Assembly: GCA_963681505.1 (NCBI GenBank)
Contig: OY811972.1
Coordinates: forward strand, 5,300,332 to 5,364,331
Direction: 5' to 3'
From: Eunapius fragilis
Lineage: Eukaryota; Porifera; Demospongiae; Spongillida; Spongillidae
Length of the DNA: 64,000 bases
The notes under the pieces were generated by a model. The model was not told the DNA's origin and ran no database searches. It saw only the letters and a program-made list of their open reading frames with translations. Below, piece after piece: positions 2,154-53,735 of this stretch (position 1 is its first letter; each line of letters begins with the position of its first letter). The translations under genes and the position numbers were made by a program.

Positions 2154-5100
2154 ATGGATGTAACGAAAGAAAGTAAGCTACGGGAACCCGCTCGCTTGCA
2201 CTAATTGGTGCAAAAAATGTAACAGACTTTGAGTCTATACTACCGGACGTGGTATCTGCCATTGGGGGGTGCAGCTTTGTGGCTTTTGACTGCGAATTCA
2301 CAGGTGAGTCTTCCAGCCTGCCACGTGCGCACTCCCGTCTTCGAGGTGATATATGCGAGGGGTCCTACGCAGGTTTGACGGAGGGAAGGGAACGTTTCAG
2401 CCCCGTAGACACTCCAGACGAACGCTATACTAAGACTGTCCAGGTATCTGAACGCTTTTTTTTGTAAATAGGCCTATTACATTACTGAGACATTTTAACA
2501 TACGCCGCAGGGATGTTCCAGGTTTGCTGTAATGCAGTTGGGACTTTGCATATTCACCGAAGTCACTTCGGAAGACAAACCGACCACGTACGTATAATTT
2601 ACTGGGCGAAGGATTTGTGAACCCCAATTAATACCCTCTCCATCGCACAGTTACACCGCGTCACCGTATAATTTCTACATGTTTCCCGCCTCCACGAACC
2701 ACAAGCTGGACCAGAGGTTCATGTGCCAGTCCTCAAGTCTCGCCTTTCTAGCAACACACAACATGGATTTCAACAAGTGGATCAAGGAAGGTGTGTTCCT
2801 TCTGTGGGTACAAGATCACGTGAACTCACCGCTTTTATGCCCGTCCCACTCATCTCACAGGGATACCTTACCTCAGTGAAAAGGATGAAGGCTTCTTGAG
2901 CAAGGGGAACTCGGCTAGCCAGGTGGCACAGATGCTTGGCCTCTCTAAAGTGATCAAGGCCATCACAGCCGCTGTGAGTCTTGGTGTGCATTATTTAGGA
3001 AAGGGACACTACATGTCATGAATGTTGTCATGTGCCATGGCATAGCCCTGCCCTCTGTATATCAGAGGATGGAGCCTCTGATCTGGAACCCCTGTTTTTA
3101 CCCTGCAATGTTGAACGTAATTTTAAACCTGTTTACAAATAGATTCATTTTTTAAACTTCAGTGTTGTTCCAAGCTTCCAGCTTACCCTAAAACAAGCTT
3201 GCACTGCCCTCTGACCAATAATAGGCCTTTTGGGCCAACACCAACAGCCAATCGTTTTACCATCACAATAATTAAAAGCACATGATGATTGCTAAGAAAA
3301 TTTACCGTAAGCAATCCACAACTGCTCTGGCACTCCAACTTAGATGTTTTCAAACATGATGTAAGTGTTCCAACTTATAGACTGCATATATGGCAGTATT
3401 ATTTATAGCAACCTTCAATTAATTAAATTCATTTAGATTTGGCACTGTACTGAAGGCAGTGGGACATCATTGTCACATTCATTGTCCCTTTTGCAGATAT
3501 GAATGGTGTGTAGACATTCCATAGCCAATGGCATTCACGTGCAGTTTTACTCTTATGGACGTACACATGAATGCATGTGTGTACCATATGTACCATGGAC
3601 AGGGTCACACGTACACACACATACACACACGGATACGTATCCCGTGGTAATTGTACTCTTTGTGTCTACAGAAAGTTCCTCTGGTCGGCCATAACTCCCT
3701 CTTGGATCTGCTTCACCTGTTCAAGCATTTCATAGGTCCCCTTCCAGATGTGTGTGCGGACATAAATGGTTGGACCATATAGTGACTCAGTTCTTTCCTC
3801 CTCTCCAGACCCTGCCCAACTTCAAGACTGAGCTGCTCAAGCGGTTTCCATGGTGAGCTGGTATATTTTGTTGAAATAATTCATGAACAAGAGCAAATTG
3901 CAGTATCTATGATACCAAGACCATTGCGAAACATTCTGCATTTGAGGTACAAGGGATTAGAGGGTGTCCCCTGTCTGGTCCTGCTAGTGAGGCCCCGCCC
4001 ACTCTCTTTATCATTATTGCAGGAGTGCATCCTGTCTGATGGTTTGGGTGACCTTTTTGAGACAGTACAGGCTGAACCATTTGAGGAAGTGAAAGTGGGT
4101 AAGGTGTTCAGGCATGCCACCCTAAGGTGTTCAGGTATGCCACCCTAAGGTGTTAAGGTGTTCAGGCATGCCACCATAAGGTGTTCAGGCATGTCACCCT
4201 AAGATGTTCAGGCATGTCACCCTAATATGTTCAGGCCTATGCAGTAATATGTGTTTTGTTGATCACATTGCCTTGTTATGGAGCTCAACAAGACGCAACA
4301 GGTGTTTGGCGTCTTGCCCCACCCACCCCCCCATATTTCCTCGGACCCCCCACCTTCCTCTCTTCACATCCTCCCTCCCTCCTCCCCAGACTTCCCACCC
4401 TCCTGCTCGCACTACACCTCCAGTCAAGCTCACGAGGCTGCCTATGATGCTTACATGACTGGAGTCTCCCTCCTTCGAATGGCCAGACATCTTGGTGGGT
4501 GTGGGGTCTAGGTAATGTGTCCTGGGTCAATGATGAATGTCCTTCCCTCCACCCCCACCGCCACCCCTTCCTCATCCCTCACCATTTTAGCTAAATCAAC
4601 GTCTACAAATGGCAGACCAGCCATGGCCTCTGTGTTGGAACAGCTGTCGGCTCACAGGAACAAGTCTGTTGGCCATTAACACCCCTCCCTTGTTCCCCTT
4701 CAACCTCCTCCATCTGTCCCTCCACACATATGCCATTACAGAGTATACTTGCACCACTCAGTAGACATTCCATGGCTTCATCTAGACTGTGAGGAACGTA
4801 AGTGGTTCATTCACTGTTACCCTCATGTCACCTCTGTTACTGTACCCTCATGTCACCTCTGTTACTGTACCGTCATGTCACCTCTGCTACTGTACCCTCA
4901 TGTCATCTCTGCTACTGTACCCTCATGTCACCTCTGCTACTGTACCCTCATGTCACCTCTGCTACTGTACCCTCATGTCACCTCTGCTACTGTACCCTCA
5001 TGTCACCTCTGCTACTGTACCCTCATGTCACCTCTGCTACTGTACCCTCATGTCACCTCTGTTACTGTACCCTCATGTCACCTCTGCTACTGTACCCTCA

Positions 5101-6650
5101 TGTCACCTCTGCTACTGTACCCTCATGTCACCTCTGCTACTGTACCCTCATGTCATCTCTGCTACTGTACCCTCATGTCACCTCTGCTACTGTACCCTCC
5201 TGTCACCTCTGCTACTGTACCCTCATGTCACCTCTGCTACTGTACCCTCATGTCACCTCTGCTACTGTACCCTCATGTCATCTCTGCTACTGTACGTACC
5301 CTCATGTCACCTCTGCTACTGTACCCTCATGTCACTTCTGCTACTGTACCCACATGTCCCCTTTGCTAGTGTACCCTCATGTCACCTCTGCTACTGTACC
5401 CTCATGTCACCTCTGCTACTGTACCCTCATGTCACCTCTGCTACTGTACTCTCATGTCACCTCTGCTACTGTACCCTCATGTCACCTCTGCTACTGTACC
5501 CTCCTGTCACCTCTGTTACTGTATCCTCATGTCACCTATGCTACTGTACCCTCATGTCACCTCTACTACTGTACCCTCATGTCACCTCTGCTACTGTACC
5601 CTCATGTCAGAGTCACCTCTGTTACTGTATCCTCATGTCACTTCTGTTACTGTACCCTCATGTCACCTCTGCTACTGTACCCTCATGTCACCTCTGCTAC
5701 TGCACCCTCATGTCACCTCTGCTACTGTACCCTCATGTCACCTCTGCTACTGTACCCTCATGTCACCTCTGCTACTGTACCCTCATGTCACCTCTGCTAC
5801 TGTACCCTCATGTCACCTGTTACTGTACCCTCATGTCACCTCTGCTACTGTACCCTCATGTCACCTCTGCTACTGTTCCCTCATGTCACCTCTGCTACTG
5901 TACCCTCATGTCACCTCTGCTACTGTACCCTCATGATGTCACCTCTGCCCACAGCTGTGAGGAAAGTTGAACACGTAGTGTACATGACTTTTGACGAGAG
6001 AATGACCCTAGTAGACATCAAGGGACTATTTAGTCCTTATGGTTAGTCTTTGGGAGGAGGGACACTGCCTCCACCTCCACCCACCTGTCTCTGGGGTGTG
6101 GGTGGAGGCAGTGGTGTACTTAACCCTCTGTTGATACCAAACAGGTAGTGCCTATGTCACATGGATCAACAACACCAGTGCCTTTGTGTCGCTGCGTAAT
6201 AAGGACAGGGCTTCCGAGGGTGAGGGGGTGTCTTGAGTGGGTGTGGTCTTCTGAGGGGGAGGGGTAGAGGTGAGGGTGCCTTGGGGAGGGTGGTTTGAGG
6301 TGAGGTGTGGCCTTTTGTGTGCCTTTGTCACCTAGTCACCCTCCTGTGGGACCAAGAGTTGCTTGTTTACAACAAAATAAAAAAATTGCTTGGACATTCT
6401 GCCTGTTCACTCCCATAGCCCTGCGCTGCCTGATGGACAGAGGCAAAAGCCACACCATCCCTTACAGCGTCGTACCAGCCAGCGAGTACAAGAAACCACT
6501 GGGTAGGCCCCGCCTCCTTACTCCGCCCACTGTATAACACCCACCCCCCCACCCTCACCAGATGACAGACGGACCACCTCCCACCACGGTGAGGACGCTC
6601 CCCCCAGCAAGAAACCTAAGCTGTTTGCAGTGGACGAAGAATGGCCCTGA
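2154..6650 (+). CDS. PARN: PARN-family poly(A)-specific 3' exoribonuclease (17 exons)
   Basis: Predicted 435-aa DEDD-family deadenylase that shortens mRNA poly(A) tails. Exons: 2154-2172, 2226-2303, 2373-2443, 2511-2587, 2651-2790, 2861-2973, 3672-3749, 3809-3852, 3904-3946, 4023-4098, 4390-4494, 4591-4663, 4742-4797, 5955-6041, 6145-6219, 6419-6502, 6562-6650. All phases join. The start MDVTKENFESILPDVV parallels human PARN. The catalytic acids are present: D28 and E30 in FDCEF, the D of YDTK, and H and D of HEAAYDAY. Also visible are MCQSSS, GIPYL, VPLVGHNSLLDLLH and a C-terminal RRM-like segment (WINNTSAFVSL). The R3H insert of vertebrate PARN is absent: GIPYLSEKDEGF is followed within about 25 residues by the SKVIKAI/GHN region. 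PNLDC1 is the alternative, but the RRM segment and the acidic-Trp C-terminus (VDEEWP) favour PARN. Convergent with LASP. Confidence 0.93.
4810..5945. repeat. 25-bp minisatellite filling PARN intron 13
   Basis: About 45 copies of cctcatgtcacctctgctac plus tgtac, mostly 25 bp, with a few insertions such as those near 5292 and 5608. It occupies nearly all of the intron 4798-5954, and its last unit runs into the acceptor (cctctgcccacag). The unit has no stop codon in the three plus frames, which explains several long but meaningless open frames. Confidence 0.97.
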
Positions 6651-6926
6651 TGTGCCCCCCCCTCCTCCAATGTCCCCTGTTACCCCCCTCCCCCCAAATG
6701 ACATGTGTTCCTATGAAGGTACATGCCATCATCATATTTTCAAGACTCTGTTTTTTTATACCTCATAGCTACAAAAAGCCCTACATAGGCTAAACAGTAC
6801 TTTTAAAAAAAAAAGGGTGGGGTGGGGAAGGGAAAGGGGTGTGGCCTTTGGGATGGGGGGGGGAGTCAATGATGGAAAGGTGACTAGGGGAGGGAGGGAT
6901 CATAAGCCGTGATTGTTAATGTGGCT

Positions 6927-8804
6927 TCACATCTTTTGCACGTAGTTGGAAGGTAGCATACCGTATTGGCCCGTACGCTCAACACGGCCCTCCATCCAAC
7001 CATCATCGATGACAGTAGCTTCAATAATGGCATCACCTGAACACAGTGGTGGAAGGAGACGTAAACAACAAACGTATTCGGCAGACACATAAAGGACACC
7101 ACATCACCCCACATGTACCACCTCATATTTGACCTTCACTCACTCAAAGGACACCTCATCAGCACACCCTCACCTTCCACAAAGGACACCTCATTGCACA
7201 CCTCACCTTCCACAAAGGACACCACATCAGCACACCCTCACCTTTCGCAAAGGACACCTCATCTGCACACCCTCACCTTCCACAAAGGATACCTCATCAG
7301 CATACCCTCACCTTCCACAAAGGATACCTCATCAGCACACCCTCACCTTCCACAAAGGACACCTCTAATGCACACCCTCACCATCCTCAAAGGACACCTC
7401 TAATGCACACCCTCACCTTCCACAAAGGACACCTCTAATGCACACCCTCACTCCACAAAGGACACCTCATCAGCACACCCTCACCTTCCACAAAGGACAC
7501 CTCTAATGCACACCCTCACTCCACAAAGGACACCTCATCTGCACACCCTCACCTTCCACAAAGGATACCTCATCAGCATACCCTCACCTTCCACAAAGGA
7601 TACCTCATCAGCACACCCTCACCTTCCACAAAGGACACCTCTAATGCACACCCTCACCATCCTCAAAGGACACCTCTAATGCACACCCTCACCTTCCACA
7701 AAGGACACCTCTAATGCACACCCTCACTCCACAAAGGACACCTCATCAGCACACCCTCACCTTCCACAAAGGACACCTCATCAGCATCACTCGCGCTGTA
7801 GTCGTAGAGTGCCACATAGCGTGGGGTGCTTGGGGGTGGGGCTGGGGCCTTGGCAGACACCTTTGGCGCAGAGGGTTGCTGCGGGGGAGGAGGCTGCTGG
7901 ACGGCCACTGGTGGGTCAGGGGAGGAGGAGAGGGAGTGCGAAGAGAAGGGGGAGAAGGTGGTGGTATCAAATGGACAAAATAACTAACAGTGTATACACA
8001 CATGGAGTAAATACCAGCCGGGCTCCTCCCACACACCCCACCTTACAAGACCCAACAGGTAAAATGGGCTGGAGAAGAAAAGAACCAAACCTCCTCCTCT
8101 TCCCTCCTGCCACACATCCCTCCACCCCCACCCCCCCCCCCATACCCCAGCATCACGTTTGGAACAAGATGAAAATCATGAACTCCCTCCTCTCTCTCTC
8201 TCCCCTCCCCACCACCCCCCCCCCCCACACCACCCCACATAGCGGCATCACTGACTTGGAGGGGGCATGCGGCTGGGTGCGGGTGCAGGCTCCTCCCTCT
8301 CTTCCTCCCGCTGGGCGTAGGCGGCAGGACTGGCTAGTTTGGAGGCGGCCTGGGCCTGGCGTGTGGTGGCATCTGAAGCCACAGGGGTGAACTGTTTCAT
8401 GCTCTCCACCTTGTCCTTACGGTATTCTATCTGGAGCACGCCGTTGTTTTGAGGTTGGATGGGCATGGGGGGGGGGGGGGTGGAAGGACAAAAAAAAAAT
8501 GAACCAGCACACCGCCCGCTCCATATCATCGTCATGACAACGTATACACAACACAAGGACTGCAAAGATGCACGCGCACAATTTGAGACATCTCAAACAC
8601 ACACACACACTAACATGCACACACACATACTAACATGCACACACACACTAACATGCACACACACACTAACATGCACACACACACTAACATGCACACACAC
8701 ACACTAACATGCACACACACACACTAACATGCACACACACACTAACATGCACACACACACTAACATGCACACACACACTAACATGCACACACACACACTA
8801 ACAT

Positions 8805-14015: not shown

Positions 14016-14070
14016 ACCCCTAACTATGTACCTATTATTATTAATATTACCTTAAAACTTCTCTTAAAAG

Positions 14071-16164
14071 ATGGAAGGAAATACAGTGGAATTTTTTGAC
14101 TTGTGCACGCACTATTTTGCCTCTGACGGGATACAAGTGGCGCTTCGCTACCCCGCTAAGTGGTCTTCAAGCGACCGTTTTCGGGTGTGGCTGTGCAGTC
14201 AGACAGTCGCTGACGACAGGTTGCTACGGGCCAGCGTGCGCTGGGACACGCCAGGAGACAACGACTCCGCCCCGTGGGTTCAAGCGACTCTGCACATCCC
14301 TCCAGCCGAACTGGAGGGTCTGAAGAGCGCCGAGTACTGGCTGCGTTGCGAGTGGCGGGAAGAAGACGGCGAAGTGATGACCGGTCGTTGCCAGCCCTTC
14401 GTTATATGCATCGAACCGCGTGACATCCCGTCGCCCGCGACCTCTGGCGACCATTCCGCGCTCGCTGAAGGTGGTGGTGGCGGCGGCGGCGGGCGACAGT
14501 CTCCAACGGCTTCGCTGGGGAGCGGCAGCTTCGTCCTAGTGGACGAGGAAGGCAACGACGACGAATGCTTGGGCGAGGGTAGAGGAGGACACGGTCCGCC
14601 TATTGAAAATGGCGAGCCCCGTGGTAACGATGCGGCAGAACACGAGGCTATCGCGGGGGGAGGCGTACCGCAGCAGCAGCCGCGAGAGGCCGTCGTCTCC
14701 GTTAGCGGTGGAGTGACTCTTGCTCCGACGGTGAACAGTTGCGGAATACAGACGCACGATGACGACAACAAAACTGAGTTATCCGAATACGGCACGCAGA
14801 CGGACCCAAACTCCGAGGAGCAGCTGGTGCAGTTAGCCAACATGACGGCTAGCTCGTATGTCAACACCCTGAGCGAGGCGGAAGTCGGTCTTCTGAAGAG
14901 CCACAACCGTGACCTGCTGGTCAAAGTGCGCAAACTCGCCGAGCGGGTTCGCCTCCTAGAGCAGGAGAAAGAAGCGGAAATGCAACGGGAAAGCGAGCGG
15001 GTTGAGCTGTCAGCCCGCCTCAAGGGGGCCGAGGAACAACTCCAGCAACTTCGCTCACAAATGGCGCGTAGCGACGCCGCGAAAGCCAGTGCGTTAGCGG
15101 AGCGGGACGACCTGCGGGCGGAAAAGGTCGTCTTGGAAACGGAGCGGGACGACCTGCGCGCGGAAAAGGCTGCCCTGGCCACGGAGCGGGACCGGCTGTG
15201 CGCGGAGGCGCTACGTCTCAGGGACGAGTGCGCGGGGCTAGCGGAGGGCAAGGAGGCGCTGGTGGCCGAGCTGCAGTGCAAGTTGGAGGAGCTGGAAGCC
15301 TCGGAGGAGAGGCAGAAGGAACTGGACAGCGTTGTGAAGAAGTCCAGCGCCGAAGTCAAGTGCTTGTTCGACCGCAACACCCAGCTTGAGGGGAGGCTTG
15401 TGTCCAAAGAGAACGAGCTGAGGGTCTCGCAGGAGGCTCTGTCGGAGAGCAGGAGGGAACTGAGCAAAGCCCTGGCGAAGCTCAAGTCGTTTGCCGCTGC
15501 CAATGAGGGTGGTGGTGAGGGGGAAGGTGGTCACAGGTCTGCTCATAACAGAGACAGGTCAGTGGGGAGAAGCGAGGAAACTCACAGTAGTGGCAATGGT
15601 AGGAGAAGGGCTACCTCCAGCGGCAGCAGCAGTAGTGAGGTCACCCCAGCCAAGCCGCTTCGCGTGCCGGAGAGATATGACGCCGGTGTACTGTTCAACA
15701 CTTACCCGGTCGCTGCTCGACCCAAGGACGAGTTTGTTACAGGCGTGGAACTTAAGGAGCCTATCCCCAGCGGGAGGAGTGGAGGAGGCAGGAGGGACCA
15801 GCCCCAGGACCACCCTCGGAGGCACCATCGCAGCAGTCGCCCACCTCACGCCCACCAAGGTACCGGTGGGGGTAGTTCCCAGACCTCTGGACCTCCTCTG
15901 GAGGGAGAGGGTGTCTCGTCATCCAAGGCAATGGCTCCGCCCACCTTATCCAAGAGGCAAGAAGGGGGCGCGTTGAGGCCAGTCGACCTTCCGCAGTTGG
16001 GAGAGACTCCCTTCACATGTCCGGTGTGCCAAAAGACGCTGTACTCAAGGGACACAGAGTTTGCTGCTACACTTCATGTAGAACACTGTCTCAGACAACA
16101 GGAGGCCATGAGCAATCCTGCCTGTCCCTTGAATGATGCCTACGCTCCTCCACCACATCAGTAA
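14071..16164 (+). CDS. SKICH-coiled-coil-zinc finger protein, CALCOCO/TAX1BP1 type (single exon)
   Basis: A 697-aa uninterrupted frame. Residues 5-115 align with the SKICH domain of CALCOCO1/NDP52/TAX1BP1 (VEFFDLCTHYF, FRVWLCSQTV, SAEYWLRCEWREEDGEV, CQPFVICIEPRD). A Gly-rich linker is followed by SFVLVDEEGNDDE (F154 to V157), an aromatic-x-x-hydrophobic motif with upstream Ser and downstream acid, as in LC3/GABARAP-interacting motifs. Residues about 255-485 form a long heptad coiled coil with near-identical repeats (ERDDLRAEK). The C-terminus (about 650-673) is one zinc finger, CPVC-x15-H-x3-C, like the ubiquitin-binding fingers of this family. In vertebrates such proteins are selective-autophagy receptors; that role is inferred here. 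It starts 102 bp after canopy and is convergent with WDSUB1 (186 bp apart). Confidence 0.87.
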   Translation: MEGNTVEFFDLCTHYFASDGIQVALRYPAKWSSSDRFRVWLCSQTVADDRLLRASVRWDTPGDNDSAPWVQATLHIPPAELEGLKSAEYWLRCEWREEDGEVMTGRCQPFVICIEPRDIPSPATSGDHSALAEGGGGGGGGRQSPTASLGSGSFVLVDEEGNDDECLGEGRGGHGPPIENGEPRGNDAAEHEAIAGGGVPQQQPREAVVSVSGGVTLAPTVNSCGIQTHDDDNKTELSEYGTQTDPNSEEQLVQLANMTASSYVNTLSEAEVGLLKSHNRDLLVKVRKLAERVRLLEQEKEAEMQRESERVELSARLKGAEEQLQQLRSQMARSDAAKASALAERDDLRAEKVVLETERDDLRAEKAALATERDRLCAEALRLRDECAGLAEGKEALVAELQCKLEELEASEERQKELDSVVKKSSAEVKCLFDRNTQLEGRLVSKENELRVSQEALSESRRELSKALAKLKSFAAANEGGGEGEGGHRSAHNRDRSVGRSEETHSSGNGRRRATSSGSSSSEVTPAKPLRVPERYDAGVLFNTYPVAARPKDEFVTGVELKEPIPSGRSGGGRRDQPQDHPRRHHRSSRPPHAHQGTGGGSSQTSGPPLEGEGVSSSKAMAPPTLSKRQEGGALRPVDLPQLGETPFTCPVCQKTLYSRDTEFAATLHVEHCLRQQEAMSNPACPLNDAYAPPPHQ

Positions 16165-17989: not shown

Positions 17990-20403
17990 ACGGGAGTCTG
18001 CCTCATTTGGATAATAACTCACATGCCCATCATTACTGAGTGCACAAGGTGACTGCATTTTTAAAAACAGTTTAAGGTACTTAAACCAAGTTAACTGATT
18101 TGGGTTGATAACTACCAGCGCATGTGCTCATCACGGTTGGGCACATACATATAAGTACCCTGGCATGCTGCCCAATTGAGCACACAGAGGAGCAGGGTAT
18201 GGTGGGTACACAGAGGAGCAGGGTATGGTGGGTACACAGAGGAGCAGGGTATGGTGGGTACACAGAGGAGCAGGGTATGGTGGGTACACAGAGGAGCAGG
18301 GTATGGTGGGTACACAGAGGAGCAGGGTATGGTGGTACACAGAGGAGCAGGGTATGGTGGGTACACAGAGGAGGAGGGTATGGTGGGTACACAGAGGAGC
18401 AGGGTATGGTGGGTACACAGAGGAGCAGGGTATGGTGGGTACACAGAGGAGCAGGGTATGGTGGGTACACAGAGGAGCAGGGTATGGTGGGTACACAGAG
18501 GAGCAGGGTATGGTGGTACACAGAGGAGCAGGGTATGGTGGGTACACAGAGGAGCAGGGTATGGAGGGTACACAGAGGAGCAGGGTATGGTGGGTACACA
18601 GAGAAGCAGGGTATGGTGGGTACACAGAGGAGCAGGGTATGGTGGGCACACTGAGGAGCAGGGTATGGTGGGTACACAGAGGAGCAGGGTATGGTGGGTA
18701 CACAGAGGAGCAGGGTATGGTGGTACACAGAGGAGCAGGGTATGGTGGGTACACAGAGGAGCAGGGTATGGAGGGTACACAGAGGAGCAGGGTATGGTGG
18801 GTACACAGAGAAGCAGGGTATGGTGGGTACACAGAGGAGCAGGGTATGGTGGGCACACTGAGAGCAGGGTATGGTGGGTACACAGAGGAGCAGGGTATGG
18901 TGTATGAAGCATGTAGATTGATAAGGATATGGTAGGGTAGGAACAAGGGGTTCCCAGGTGAGGTAATATCTGTAGACAGGATCTGCAGCTGTATGCATGT
19001 GTGGGCAAAAGGTCTGATGGCCTTTACATATAAGGTTGGTGAAGAAGTGTTACAATCAGTCTAAGCTTACTGTGCAAGACCATAGGCAGATCTAACCCTG
19101 TTTTTTTTTTTTTTTTTTCTTCACTACATAATGTGAGAGTGCTGTTAGGAGTACCTTATGGTGGCTTAAACAAGTTGACGCACAACAGTACAAGACTGAT
19201 GATGATGATGTGGCGAGAAAGTCTGCTGCACTTCATGAACAATTTGAGCACCTTGAACTCGGTTTTTCCCTTTTTAAGGTTTTTTTTCCAGGAGGAGGTG
19301 TGGGCCCACTTCCTCTAAATATAGTCAAAATAGTTGGCCCCTGCTCATGTGGTGGCAGTATGTGTAGTACATTGTGTACTGAATGAATGGATGTGATGGG
19401 CTAGTGCTGGTGGTGTGTCCTGAATGTATGGATGTGATGGGCTAGTGCTGGTGGTGTGTACTGAATGTATGGATGTGATGGTCTAGTGCTGGTGGTGTGT
19501 ACTGAATGTATGGATGTGATGGGCTAGTGCTGGTGGTGTGTACTGAATGTATGGATGTGATGGGCTAGTGCTGGTGGTGTGTACTGAATGTATGGATGTG
19601 ATGGTCTAGTGCTGGTGGTGTGTACTGAATGTATGGATGTGATGGGCTAGTGCTGGTGGTGTGTACTGAATGTATGGATGTGATGGTCTAGTGCTGGTGG
19701 TGTGTACTGAATGTATGGATGTGATGGGCTAGTGCTGGTGGTGTGTACTGAATGTATGGATGTGATGGTCTAGTGCTGGTGGTGTGTACTGAATGTATGG
19801 ATGTGATGGGCTAGTGCTGGTGGTGTGTACTGAATGTATGGATGTGATGGGCTAGTGCTGGTGGTGTGTACTGAATGTATGGATGTGATGGTCTAGTGCT
19901 GGTGGTGTGTACTGAATGTATGGATGTGATGGGCTAGTGCTGGTGGTGTGTACTGAATGTATGGATGTGATGGGCTAGTGCTGGTGGTGTGTACTGAATG
20001 TATGGATGTGATGGGCTAGTGCTGGTGGTGTGTACTGAATGTATGGATGTGATGGGTTAGTGCTGGTGGTGTGTACTGAATGTATGGATGTGATGGGCTA
20101 GTGCTGGTGGTGTGTACTGAATGTATGGATGTGATGGGCTAGTGCTGGTGGTGTGTACTGAATGTATGGATGTGATGGTCTAGTGCTGGTGGTGTGTACT
20201 GAATGTATGGATGTGATGGGCTAGTGCTGGTGGTGTGTACTGAATGTATGGATGTGATGGTCTAGTGCTGGTGGTGTGTACTGAATGTATGGATGTGATG
20301 GTCTAGTGCTGGTGGTGTGTACAATGGACGCAGTAACTAAACTAAGTTTCAATATGCCCAGATCCTTTGTGGGTGGGGCGCGTTAATAACAAAACCGGGC
20401 TGG

Positions 20404-38245: not shown

Positions 38246-38370
38246 ACCAAAATTAGACACTGTCTGTCAGCTGAACAAATCGTGCGTGACACTACCCTCG
38301 CATGATGTGCATCCCACTAACGTAAAAGTTATTATTGTTCGTTACGTACAGTTGATAATTGACAGAGGTG

Positions 38371-39702
38371 ATGGAAAAAACCCAATCCGTTGCGATGGCG
38401 TGTGGGTATAACTGTGAGTTAGTGGACACCGCCCCAACCGTACTTGAAACAGAATGCTCCGTGTGCCTGCTCCTTCTACGAGAGCCCCATCTTACCAGTT
38501 GCTGTGGGCACAACTTCTGCCGCGATTGCATAGGGACAGTCCAAAACGACAAGCGCCCATGTCCGCTATGCCAGCACGTTGGATTTTCAACTATGCGCAA
38601 CAAAGGTTTAGAAAGGTCGATTAAAGACCTTATGGTGTGGTGTGAAAACAAGACTGTAGGCTGCAAGTGGACGGGTCAACTGAGCAAACTGGACGACCAC
38701 GTGGAAAACGTGTGCCCTTTTACTGAATTGTATTGCATGCATGGCTGTGATGCTGTTATGATTCGTCGAGATATTGCGGAGCACGAAGAAGCTTGTGAAC
38801 TTCGCCCATTTCAATGCCAACACTGCAAAAGTTACACGTCAACTTACAGGAACGTAGTCAATGAGCACAGCTCTACATGCATCAAGTACCCTGTCCCCTG
38901 CCCTAACAAGTGTTCAATGTTTATAGCTCGAGAGCACCTCCCTCATCACCTAGATAATGAATGTGAGCTCTGTATTGTGGAGTGTGAGTTCAGATACGCT
39001 GGTTGTACAGTGAGGTGTCCTAAGAAAGACTTGTCATCTCATTTGAAAAGCGATCTGTGTGCACACTTGTCGATGGTTTCATCAATGAACAAGCGACTGC
39101 TGCAAGAGAACAGTGAGCTGTCAAAGCGCTTGACTTATCTGGAGTCTATGGCGGTTGTGGGTGTGCGTATTGAACAGCAAGGTGAAGAATTGGCAGAACA
39201 GCTTAAGACAGTGCAAAAGGAGAGTAAAGCACTAGTTGCCCATCTGAGGGGAACAAAGGCATTGATAGGTCTACCTCCTATCGAAATTTCAGTTGACTAC
39301 TATACCATAATTCGTATGATGGATGAGCGTTATGACAGAACCGATGGGTTGGAGGTTTGTAATTTCTATTCTCATATTGGAGGATACAGAATGCAACTTC
39401 AGCTGCAAAACCAACTATTCAAGGCCTGTGTCCTGCTTCGAATATACATGGTGCAAGGAGAATGTGATGATGATCTTGAATGGCCTTTCAATGGAATTGT
39501 TGTTGTCATTATAAAACCTAGGCAACAATTGTATCGTGTTGATTTCCGCCGAGCTCCACTGAAGTGCAAGTCAAGAGTGGTAGGCGGATCTGTTGGCACT
39601 GTGTCGTGTAATGGATGGGGACCTTCAAAACCAATATTCAAAAATGATCTGATCGCAGCAGAAGATTGTAGCATAGTTATTGATGAAGTTATAATACCAT
39701 GA
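38371..39702 (+). CDS. TRAF-family RING / TRAF-zinc finger / MATH protein (single exon)
   Basis: 443 aa without introns, start ATG 38371 (a second in-frame ATG lies eight codons on). A RING finger of C3HC4 type spans residues 29-67 (C29, C32, C45, H47, C50, C53, C64, C67; ECSVCLLLLREPHLTS...CCGHNFCRDC). Four TRAF-type zinc-finger segments follow (KTVGCKWTGQLSKLDDHV, CMHGCDAVMIRRDIAEHE, PCPNKCSMFIAREHLPHHL, GCTVRCPKKDLSSHL), then a short coiled coil (LQENSELSKRLTYLESM) and a MATH/TRAF domain (FYSHIGGYRMQLQL, DDDLEWPFNGIVVV, GWGPSKPIF). TRAFs link TNF/IL-1-type receptors to NF-kB and JNK through ubiquitin ligation. Lack of introns suggests an origin by retroposition, or intron loss. A good AATAAA lies at 39856. 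Confidence 0.94.
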   Translation: MEKTQSVAMACGYNCELVDTAPTVLETECSVCLLLLREPHLTSCCGHNFCRDCIGTVQNDKRPCPLCQHVGFSTMRNKGLERSIKDLMVWCENKTVGCKWTGQLSKLDDHVENVCPFTELYCMHGCDAVMIRRDIAEHEEACELRPFQCQHCKSYTSTYRNVVNEHSSTCIKYPVPCPNKCSMFIAREHLPHHLDNECELCIVECEFRYAGCTVRCPKKDLSSHLKSDLCAHLSMVSSMNKRLLQENSELSKRLTYLESMAVVGVRIEQQGEELAEQLKTVQKESKALVAHLRGTKALIGLPPIEISVDYYTIIRMMDERYDRTDGLEVCNFYSHIGGYRMQLQLQNQLFKACVLLRIYMVQGECDDDLEWPFNGIVVVIIKPRQQLYRVDFRRAPLKCKSRVVGGSVGTVSCNGWGPSKPIFKNDLIAAEDCSIVIDEVIIP

Positions 39703-50826: not shown

Positions 50827-51620
50827 ATCCACTGTAAATATGTCAAGCATTGACTGATGGCGATTGATAGCATCATCGTCCATTATAGAACAATAGATGA
50901 TTTGGCTGTTGAAACGTAGGATCATTCAATGAACAACATTAGGCAAAACTGATCATATGAAATATAAAATATATAATTTGGTTTACTGAATACATTTTGA
51001 TTTATATGCATAGAATGAAATTCTGACAACGCACATCATGCAGTGTATGTCAATAAGAAACTCATAAATAGTACCCATCAAGTAACCTTTTGTTTTCACT
51101 ACAACCATTTATGAATTATTACGAATCGATGTATATAAGAGAAGTGGCCGTTTCCCCATGGTTTGATCGAGTTGGTTTCTTATTCCGGTAAAAGGAAGCG
51201 GTGTATTTCGATATCAACACCATGTTTTACATTGCATTGTGTTAGGTAAGCCTTTTCGCTTAGCGCAATTTCTATGCCTCAGAAATGTGGTACGATCAGT
51301 AATCTTTCATTCAAGTTAACTTAAAGCAGTTTTTTTTTAAAATTACTGCATCAATGCTTAACGCAACGCTAAAAATTGCAGTCAAAGAAATCTGGCTTGA
51401 CAACGGGTTGATTGACATTAAAATAGTTAAAATAGTTACGTAACTTGTATCTATTCGATTATGGCTGAGGGCGTTGGTTATTTTGTTGACAGAGAAAACG
51501 GTTCCTTTCGGAACCAACTGAAGCACTCATCGCATGCCGAGAAAGCCTGCTTGTCATGCTGTAATGTAAACTACTATGCGTAAAGAAATCTCCATCACTA
51601 AATACGCTTAACTTGTCCTC

Positions 51621-52590
51621 CTAATCCTGTAGCAAGCTGTATGGCACCTGTTTCAGGACTACAGGATACAGCCTCTTCAGAAGTTCCGCTGCTTGTCTTT
51701 CTTCTCCAGGTGTAAGCAATGGTACACATTCTTGTGCATCATATTCTACAGCTTTAACATCCCAACCACAACTTGTACAATGAACCAAAACATCTGATAG
51801 CAGCAGAAGTATAGCATTGAATTTCGATGCTGGTCTGATATGAGATGAAACAAGGGGGCCATCATCTGAGCAGAAAGGACAGTTCACAGAACCAGAGGCT
51901 GCTATCATATTAACTATGCACCTGGTGCATATGAGTGGACTGCATACAAGTTCCAGTGGCTGTGGGAGAATATTGGAACACAATGCACATTTCAGCTCCT
52001 TCAAGATTGACATGCTGTTTTTGGCTGCCGTTAGTGGACAAGGCTCATGTAGAACAATTGGAGGAGGGGCAATCTTCCACAGATGGGTAATGAGCAAGTT
52101 AAGAGTGATGCCTGCATGTTGTCCACTAGGTACTGTCGACCTTCTAACATGTCCATGTGCACACGTTTTGAAGTACTCACATACCTGCATAAACACTGTT
52201 ATTTCATATACATACATGTATATGATTAAGCAATAGTTCTACCTTGCATTCCTTTTTCCTCACGCTTAAGCCACTGAAATGGGATGACAGCACACTTGTA
52301 ATGCAACCCCTTTGTGATTGCGCTAATGTTTCTCTGCATAGAATGCTTGCAACAGATGCAGAAACTTTCTGGTGTATGCGGGCATCATTACCTGAGGTGT
52401 CCATGCTAAAGGCAATTTTCAGCTCTGCTGAGAAAACCTTGCAATGGTAGCAAGTATTTGGCTTCTCTCTGGTCTTCTTTAGCCTCAGACCACACACTCT
52501 GAAATGCATAGGCACTTGCTGGATGTGGTACTCCATTCCTATAATCATGTTCATGTACAATGCGTACGCATGAACTTTATCAATATTCAT
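51621..52590 (-). CDS. RAG1 N-terminal-like zinc finger protein (2 exons)
   Basis: Exon 1 52243-52590 and exon 2 51621-52184 give 303 aa. The layout follows the non-core N-terminal third of vertebrate RAG1: FRVCGLRLKKT (RAG1 LCRICGNSF), ELKIAFSMDTSGNDARIHQK (RAG1 KVFRIDVKADVDSIHPTEF), KKECKVCEYFKTC spliced across the intron (RAG1 PSCDICNTA), then a RING-like finger at residues 182-221 (LKCALCSNILPQPLELVC, CTRCIV, NCPFC) and ILLLLSDVLVHCTSCGWDV. The RING histidine (CxH) is Pro, and the HPxxFCxxC cysteines are missing, so some zinc sites are lost. There is no catalytic core downstream. Similar N-terminal-only genes are known from the N-RAG-TP transposon of molluscs; a fossil transposon gene or a host gene are both possible. 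Confidence 0.6.
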
Positions 52591-52599
52591 AAAATACGC

Positions 52600-53735
52600 T
52601 AGGCTTGTTTGTGGTATAGAGAATACGTCAGCGCTTCAGGCTTGTTTACTCCGATTGTCACACGCCTTCTCGTCATTTGTATTATATGCTTACCTCATAG
52701 ATCAGTACACAGAGTCCACGCTGCCGAGTTTCGTAACCACCCCTCGTAATAATGTACCGCGTGCTCTTATAAAAACGGCCTGCGCATACCATTATTGTGC
52801 AATTTGTGACTAGTGCTCTCAGTTGTTATCATTTATACATTAGCTGGTTCCTTTGAGTTATGGACAGCTTGAAAACATTGGGTGTCGTTAATTAACAGTC
52901 ATTTCGTTCACCATTTCGAAACCAATACCGTTTTAGTCTAATTATTAGCACAGTTTCCAGCCGCAAGCAACCATGTCGCTCTTAGTGGCAATCGAGCGAT
53001 ATCACATAGGAGAGCAGTTCTGCGTTGTTTCCATGTCATCAGACTGTGTACTATTAGAGAACAAAACTACTCGTCCCCATCGTCCGTACCCAGTCCTATA
53101 TATAATTCTCCTTCGTCGTCTTCTTCCTTCGGGGTGTGTGTGTGTGAGTGTGGTGTGTGTGATGTACCCGCCCACCCAAAACATCTTAGTATCATATGGT
53201 AGGTACATGTAGTAATAAAGCTTACTGCCTCTACACCTCTGTATGTTTATATGTCCCAACCCCCTCCTCCCCTCTGAAGGGCTTAGTCCAATCCTCTCCT
53301 GCACTAAGCCATTCATAGAGGAGGAGGTTGGGACACACAAAGTGCTTAGAGATGGAACTCACAACCATAGCAACCTTGTTACTGGCCATCCACCATCTGG
53401 TCAGTGCAGTTGTCAGTACGATATTTGGGTGGTCACAATAAGCATCTTTTCATCACCTAGCAAGCTGGGAGATACCACTTATCCGTGCAATAAAAAATTG
53501 AGACCTCAAAACAAAGACAAGTATCCCCCCACAATCAGAAAGGTAGGCAGCTGGAACAGACATATACATAACATAGGTTTTGGATATGAATATGCTATTA
53601 ACTAAACCATAGTTCCATAAGCTCAAAAACCATTTCAAAACGTACAACCTACTAAGGGCTCTTTACTTTGGATATGGCTTGACCCTTTGCCGCTATTGGA
53701 ATGTTTATCACACGCACAGGACAAATAAAAAGCCC
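52600..53735. other. Intergenic stretch with a short inverted repeat
   Basis: An inverted pair (tcccaaccccctcctcccct at about 53256, and gaggaggaggttggga at about 53318) encloses about 40 bp. The plus-strand open frame at 52973-53212 begins with a plausible peptide but ends in low-complexity sequence; it is not called as a gene. Confidence 0.5.

Follow-up and report, generated by a model that had tools for sequence, protein, structure and literature searches.

The two-exon gene fragment on the minus strand of the window, that is, the whole stretch of 64,000 nucleotides of Eunapius fragilis DNA analysed here, is with high probability (around 0.92) the 5' third of a dead cut-and-paste DNA transposon of the Chapaev type (CMC clade), an assignment made from published hallmarks, with described Chapaev proteins being compared by description only. 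The original prediction had presented this locus as a RAG1 N-terminal-like gene without the recombinase core. This lead of a free RAG1 N-terminus has proved false: the window holds a truncated, frameshifted copy, and fuller copies carry a DDE-type core. It is replaced by a resolved transposon family, which in one genome comprises several diverged lineages, one uninterrupted copy, and internal-deletion derivatives that can be matched to their parents in two lineages. To judge from its sequences, the family joins a RAG1-type N-terminus to a Chapaev-type core and includes deletion copies that mimic an N-terminal-only element.

The predicted joining of two exons across an intron has been confirmed on the minus strand, where a 58-bp intron with GT-AG borders (52242-52185) separates them. 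The features of the locus are the following:

51592..52975, minus strand: probable 5' fragment of a Chapaev-type DNA transposon, 1,384 bp; the 5' terminus of the element is 52975, and likeness to full-length copies ends at 51592
52952..52975, minus strand: 5' terminal inverted repeat, in gene sense CATGGTTGCTTGCGGCTGGAAACT; siblings have CACGGTTGTTTGCGGCTGGAAACT
52243..52536, minus strand: exon 1, starting at the methionine that aligns with relatives; N-terminal zinc segments of the RAG1 type, the 3' part frame-shifted
~52257..52374, minus strand: out-of-frame stretch between two compensating 1-base indels (six siblings aligned; positions approximate)
52185..52242, minus strand: intron, 58 bp, GT-AG
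51621..52184, minus strand: exon 2, with linker, RING-like finger and following zinc segment
51621-51623, minus strand: stop ending the exon 2 frame, reached through a 1-base deletion near 51674 that shifts the frame
near 51824, minus strand: 6-base in-frame insertion in exon 2, relative to six siblings
51870..51989, minus strand: RING-like finger CALC...CPFC, without the histidine of C3HC4, as in 7/7 aligned relatives
51109..51591, minus strand: end of a different repeat family, abutting the transposon fragment at 51591/51592

The window intron has a counterpart in the relative L016, in which the sole in-frame GT-AG join of the first junction falls at the same protein position; no in-frame join at this position was found in L013 and L018 with the anchors used. 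The search for terminal inverted repeats advised in the original prediction located the 5' end of the window copy, which reads CATGG, and both ends of ten relatives. No match to the 3' terminus was obtained anywhere in the window with up to three mismatches allowed, and a tblastn search with a 937-aa relative against the whole 64 kb recovered only pieces from 52536 to 51672.

Searches of the genome (218.9 Mb, 24 contigs) for other copies, which had also been advised, returned at least 49 DNA matches to the 51592-52975 piece, itself included (40 of 124 candidates scored), and at least 151 matches to the exon-2 protein (150 of 625 candidates scored). Thus, the window gene is one copy of a repeat. 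The best-scoring 22 other DNA matches share 88-93% identity with it, and 15 of these begin exactly at the base equal to 52975. Taking the 23 close copies (at least 88% identity and at least 1,196 of the 1,384 query bases spanned, window copy included), at least 19 are followed within 6 kb on the same strand by a core exon, a lower bound since core-exon hits were picked by place among the matches listed; the window copy is one of the four without. Hence, the claim that no catalytic core follows is right for the window copy, as the tblastn search of the 64 kb showed, and wrong as a property of the gene. The same arrangement appears at the level of Pfam families. When RAG1_imp_bd hits at E up to 1 are counted, DUF1280 follows on the same strand within 5 kb in 50/126 among the matches listed (median distance 1.3 kb), none of the 126 has it upstream on the same strand, and three have it on the opposite strand. 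Among these same matches, 76/126 have no DUF1280 within 5 kb downstream, and 19 of the best 50 (E below 0.001) have it downstream.

The window copy has no core because the element ends where another repeat begins. This abutting repeat, which runs from 51591 to about 51109, has at least 52 other pieces in the genome with 67-87% identity, and among the matches listed 18 of the 52 begin at the base equal to 51591. Nine inverted pairs of the repeat, 2.2-3.4 kb apart and counted by eye among the matches listed, suggest a transposon with long terminal inverted repeats. Its insertion, or a recombination event at this repeat, probably removed the rest of the window element.

The full-length relatives measure about 4.5 kb and have CACGG...CCGTG termini. 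In them the gene runs on past the RING exon over nine more exons, giving a total of 11 short exons and about 940 aa. The uninterrupted copy, L016 (locus positions 3906-8435, contig C1), has a spliced frame of 937 aa, in a model built from genomic sequence with predicted splicing, in which 5/10 junctions allow a single in-frame GT-AG join and the shortest of two to five was taken at the others. Its 98.8% sibling, L014, has one frame change and three stops. All 11 exons were found by tblastn in 12 of the 13 loci examined, some pieces having stops (the remaining locus, L020, has five exons), and they were also found in L047 and L048.

An alignment of the core from six lineages reveals the invariant residues D175, D245, H571, H576, E593, and E597. 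The aspartates sit in GGD and GD, and H-x4-H and EQGxE are likewise invariant. In terms of motifs, D, D, H(4)H, and E are present in 6/6 lineages, C(2)C in five (missing as aligned in L024), and LH in four (LQ in L019, missing as aligned in L013). Pfam DUF1280 matches the core in all six, with a best E of 2.4e-13. In addition, each of the ten copies in which both ends could be located, a count that leaves out copies with one end or none found by the patterns, is flanked by a 4-bp target duplication: CTCT (L010), AGGT (L013), ACTA (L014), CCCC (L016), GGCA (L017), TATG (L024), TGGC (L025), CCGC (L037), TGGT (L040), and GCCC (L047). The window copy has no 3' end to compare. In citing the N-RAG-TP transposon, the original prediction had pointed in the right direction, since the full-length relatives are DNA transposons with 4-bp duplications.

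PMC4079192 (2014) describes Chapaev elements as ending in CAC...GTG, with duplications that generally measure 3-4 bp, and as encoding a DDE core in which the motifs C(2)C, LH, and H(4)H occur. The family has 4-bp duplications in 10/10 copies, CACGG...CCGTG termini in ten copies (CATGG in the window copy), and the DDE core with C(2)C/LH/H(4)H across six lineages, this core being absent from the window copy by truncation. In PMC4411706 (2015), two Chapaev subgroups are described in which a RING comes after a Chapa zinc domain, the kind found at the N-terminus of RAG1, a combination said there to occur in no other known transposable elements. The same order, zinc region and then RING, is found here, with RAG1 models standing in for the Chapa domain. 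Compared by description with what is accessible on the RING-bearing Chapaevs, the family shares with them CAC...GTG ends, 4-bp duplications, the RAG1-type zinc region with RING, and the DDE core with C(2)C, LH, and H(4)H, and differs in its host and in the RING histidine, missing here in 7/7 sequences. On these partial descriptions, the family is one of RING-bearing Chapaev-type elements, a kind already described. Among the titles listed on Chapaev in sponges and on RAG1 in Amphimedon, none dealt with this element, which is no proof of absence.

To go by its exon order and motifs, the full element, with its ends of the CACGG...CCGTG type, encodes one predicted protein in which the RAG1-type N-terminal zinc region, the RING-like finger, and a DDE-type core that contains C(2)C and H(4)H follow one another. 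This protein presumably binds the terminal repeats and excises the element, which would then be reinserted with a 4-bp staggered cut, by a chemistry like that of Chapaev and other DDE transposases. By analogy with RAG1, the N-terminal zinc/RING part may aid dimerisation, DNA binding, or regulation. The window copy most likely does nothing, because it has lost the 3' two thirds of the element, ends at another repeat, and contains frameshifts.

The RAG1 N-terminal resemblance of the family is real by profile comparison, and it is settled by the relatives rather than by the window reading alone. Built from seven N-terminal sequences of this genome, profile A2 has vertebrate RAG1 as its best PDB match (E 8.3e-14), aligning in one match to RAG1 101-376, which takes in the zinc segments, the RING-like finger, and the following zinc segment. 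Further matches of the profile are 1rmd (6e-9) and 21wb (3.5e-7), an entry for the RAG1 N-terminus, and among the best 60 rows non-RAG1 proteins match it only within positions 137-250. Pfam RAG1_imp_bd was found in 6/7 A2 members, with a best E of 9.7e-10. One RING model was found in 7/7 members at E up to 1, and in the one member inspected the RING models score below Pfam cut-offs.

The 303-aa reading of the window behaves differently: at E up to 1 Pfam assigns it to no RAG1 family, and against the PDB nine RNF168 sequences come ahead of RAG1 1rmd, which is tenth (E 8.9e-5) with a match restricted to the RING and the zinc segment that follows. Although this reading alone fits RNF168 better than RAG1, an unrelated RING protein is ruled out by the A2 match over the whole N-terminal region. 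The RAG1-like zinc segments and RING in RAG1 order that had been reported are thus found in the relatives, and are not demonstrated by the window protein alone. The identification of a RAG1 N-terminus holds through the A2 profile and RAG1_imp_bd, and the profile searches that had been recommended led, for the family, to RAG1 and not to some other RING family. The loss of the RING histidine makes ubiquitin-ligase activity of the RING-like finger doubtful.

The window copy is decayed, being both truncated and frameshifted. With respect to six siblings, exon 1 has lost one base near 52374 and gained one near 52257; apart from these and the two indels of exon 2 listed above, four further indels all lie outside the coding part. 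The frame change in exon 1 is also directly visible when tblastn is run with a relative, and the copy shares about 92% identity with its siblings in the search table, or about 95% when gaps are left out. Some zinc ligands are missing because the correct frame of exon 1 is lost from one of its two indels to the other; another, the first cysteine of 'CRVCG', is replaced by F through a substitution. The absence of ligands in this copy is thus partly due to frameshift and partly to substitution, and to this extent the suggestion that it reflects decay was correct, as was the suspicion of decay itself, evident in the indels and in the end at another repeat. It does not extend to the RING histidine, which is replaced in 7/7 aligned relatives, so that its loss is a family trait.

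The genome also has core-poor copies. Of the N-terminal hits that combine a long frame with the lack of a DUF1280 hit nearby, seven were fetched, and the last core exon (exon 11) is retained in all seven. They belong to the 76 RAG1_imp_bd hits without nearby DUF1280 and were chosen for having an N-terminal hit plus a long frame, a choice that says nothing on how often deletions keep the N-terminal part. L037-L041 have no exons 3-8 and keep an open N-terminal/RING frame of 286 aa, L038 being a 100% duplicate of L037 that includes part of the flank. L042 has no exons 3-7, and in L043 the only exons seen were 1-3 and 11, together with one hit at chance level. In a further lineage (L017, L020, L023) exons 3-8 are absent, apart from a chance-level hit. 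When compared with the full-length L047, L037 and L040 show 93-97.5% identity either side of a 1.6-kb gap, and L042 shows 94-96% either side of a 1.4-kb gap when compared with L048. L037/L040 and L042 are internal deletions of full-length elements, because both flanks of the gap match L047 and L048, respectively.

Taking these copies into account, the window feature is very unlikely to be an N-terminal-only element comparable to N-RAG-TP. Such an element would agree with the N-terminal part being all that the window copy has, with the open 286-aa frame that copies without exons 3-8 retain, two of them (L037 and L040) with both ends and 4-bp duplications, and with the Aplysia element, which is composed entirely of RAG1 N-terminal-like sequence according to the available text of PMC8355894. 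However, the window copy has no 3' end, at least 19/23 close copies run on into core exons, L037, L040, and L042 are the deletions just described, and even the core-poor copies fetched keep a core exon in every case, so that N-terminal-like sequence alone is found neither in the full-length copies nor in these. N-RAG-TP (Panchin and Moroz 2008), as far as its accessible description goes, is a mobile element with a RAG1 N-terminal-like protein, and the core-poor copies here are alike in outline; in this genome, in contrast, the N-terminal-only form derives from a fuller transposon, by truncation in the window and by internal deletion in L037/L040 and L042.

A host gene domesticated from the transposon, with the N-terminal zinc/RING part kept, is even less probable, for the continuous reading over both window exons that would speak for it is set against one lost cysteine, an end at another repeat, a 5' terminal repeat still attached, and three single-base indels by which its coding part differs from siblings. 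Stand-alone and domesticated genes alike were rejected on the indels, the copy number of the repeat, the repeat boundary, and the lack of a core elsewhere in the window. The changed role that had been proposed beside decay receives no support either: for the 286-aa frame, pN/pS values of 1.14, 1.35, and 0.90 were obtained in the three pairs formed by three core-poor copies from a different lineage. These values show no sign of selection, but the test is weak, as each pair has only two to six synonymous differences.

A remnant of a RAG1-like (ProtoRAG) or Transib element in place of Chapaev is equally improbable. It would account for RAG1 being the best fit of the N-terminal profile among solved structures. 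In vertebrate RAG1/ProtoRAG the N-terminal zinc region and RING come in the same order, and the core here agrees by eye with the motif order D, D, C(2)C, LH, H(4)H, E, which we take to be that of RAG1. Nevertheless, the target duplication is 4 bp here in 10/10 copies, against the 5 bp reported, in the sources as available, for Transib and RAG-like elements, and the core shows no significant similarity. Searched against the PDB at E up to 10, the core profile yields neither RAG1 nor Transib. Its hhalign score against the RAG1 core segment, an approximate query, is 18.6, compared with 11.9-19.7 for 20 shuffles and 22.1 for the reversed segment. The RAG1 core family PF12940 has no match over its cut-off in the genome, and its single weak match (E 0.0066) is on another contig.

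This match, L029 (G000:C20:1601751-1601978), is the only one for PF12940 among the matches listed; it contains '...LGSLSEEPLEHNNKNLRRYRES...', resembles by eye the RAG1 C-terminal catalytic region, and perhaps belongs to a different Transib/RAG-like element or gene. No RAG2-like gene was recognised by eye in the frames listed. The 5' end of L026, which represents one lineage, begins CACAGTAG, similar to the V(D)J heptamer CACAGTG, a likeness possibly due to chance.

With the window feature read as part of a Chapaev-type transposon, the question raised by the original prediction, namely when the RAG1 N-terminus and the core were joined, remains a fair one. The locus does not show them apart, and in this family the N-terminus is joined with a Chapaev-type core. 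In the portions available, PMC4411706 and PMC8355894 differ on the origin of the RAG1 N-terminal half, attributed to a Chapaev-like transposase or to a separate donor, and the family provides material to test which of the two it came with. By analogy with the deletion copies, and as far as the description at hand permits, the N-RAG-TP of Aplysia may be of the same kind. The general form of this idea, in which the Aplysia element and other 'N-RAG' N-terminal-only transposons are internal-deletion derivatives of RING-bearing Chapaev, is tentative, and we would give it somewhat less than an even chance. If true, a single protein would already have carried the N-terminal region of RAG1 together with a DDE core at an early point in animal evolution. 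The separate N-terminal transposon of the separate-donor idea, for which the Aplysia element is the basis, would then be unnecessary.

Some other features of the genome and the window can be mentioned. A search for silicatein, a diagnostic of demosponges, recognised six cysteine-protease active-site stretches in the genome, all of which have the cysteine, and none in the L035 and L036 pieces. On the plus strand of the window, an open frame of 447 aa (38359-39702) looks by eye like a TRAF-type RING/zinc-finger protein, and another of 698 aa (14068-16164), with a long coiled coil, looks by eye like TAX1BP1/CALCOCO. Large minisatellite arrays, with periods of 25, 26, and 41, occupy positions 4813-5935, 18182-18902, and 19373-20322, and coincide with stretches of strong GC skew.
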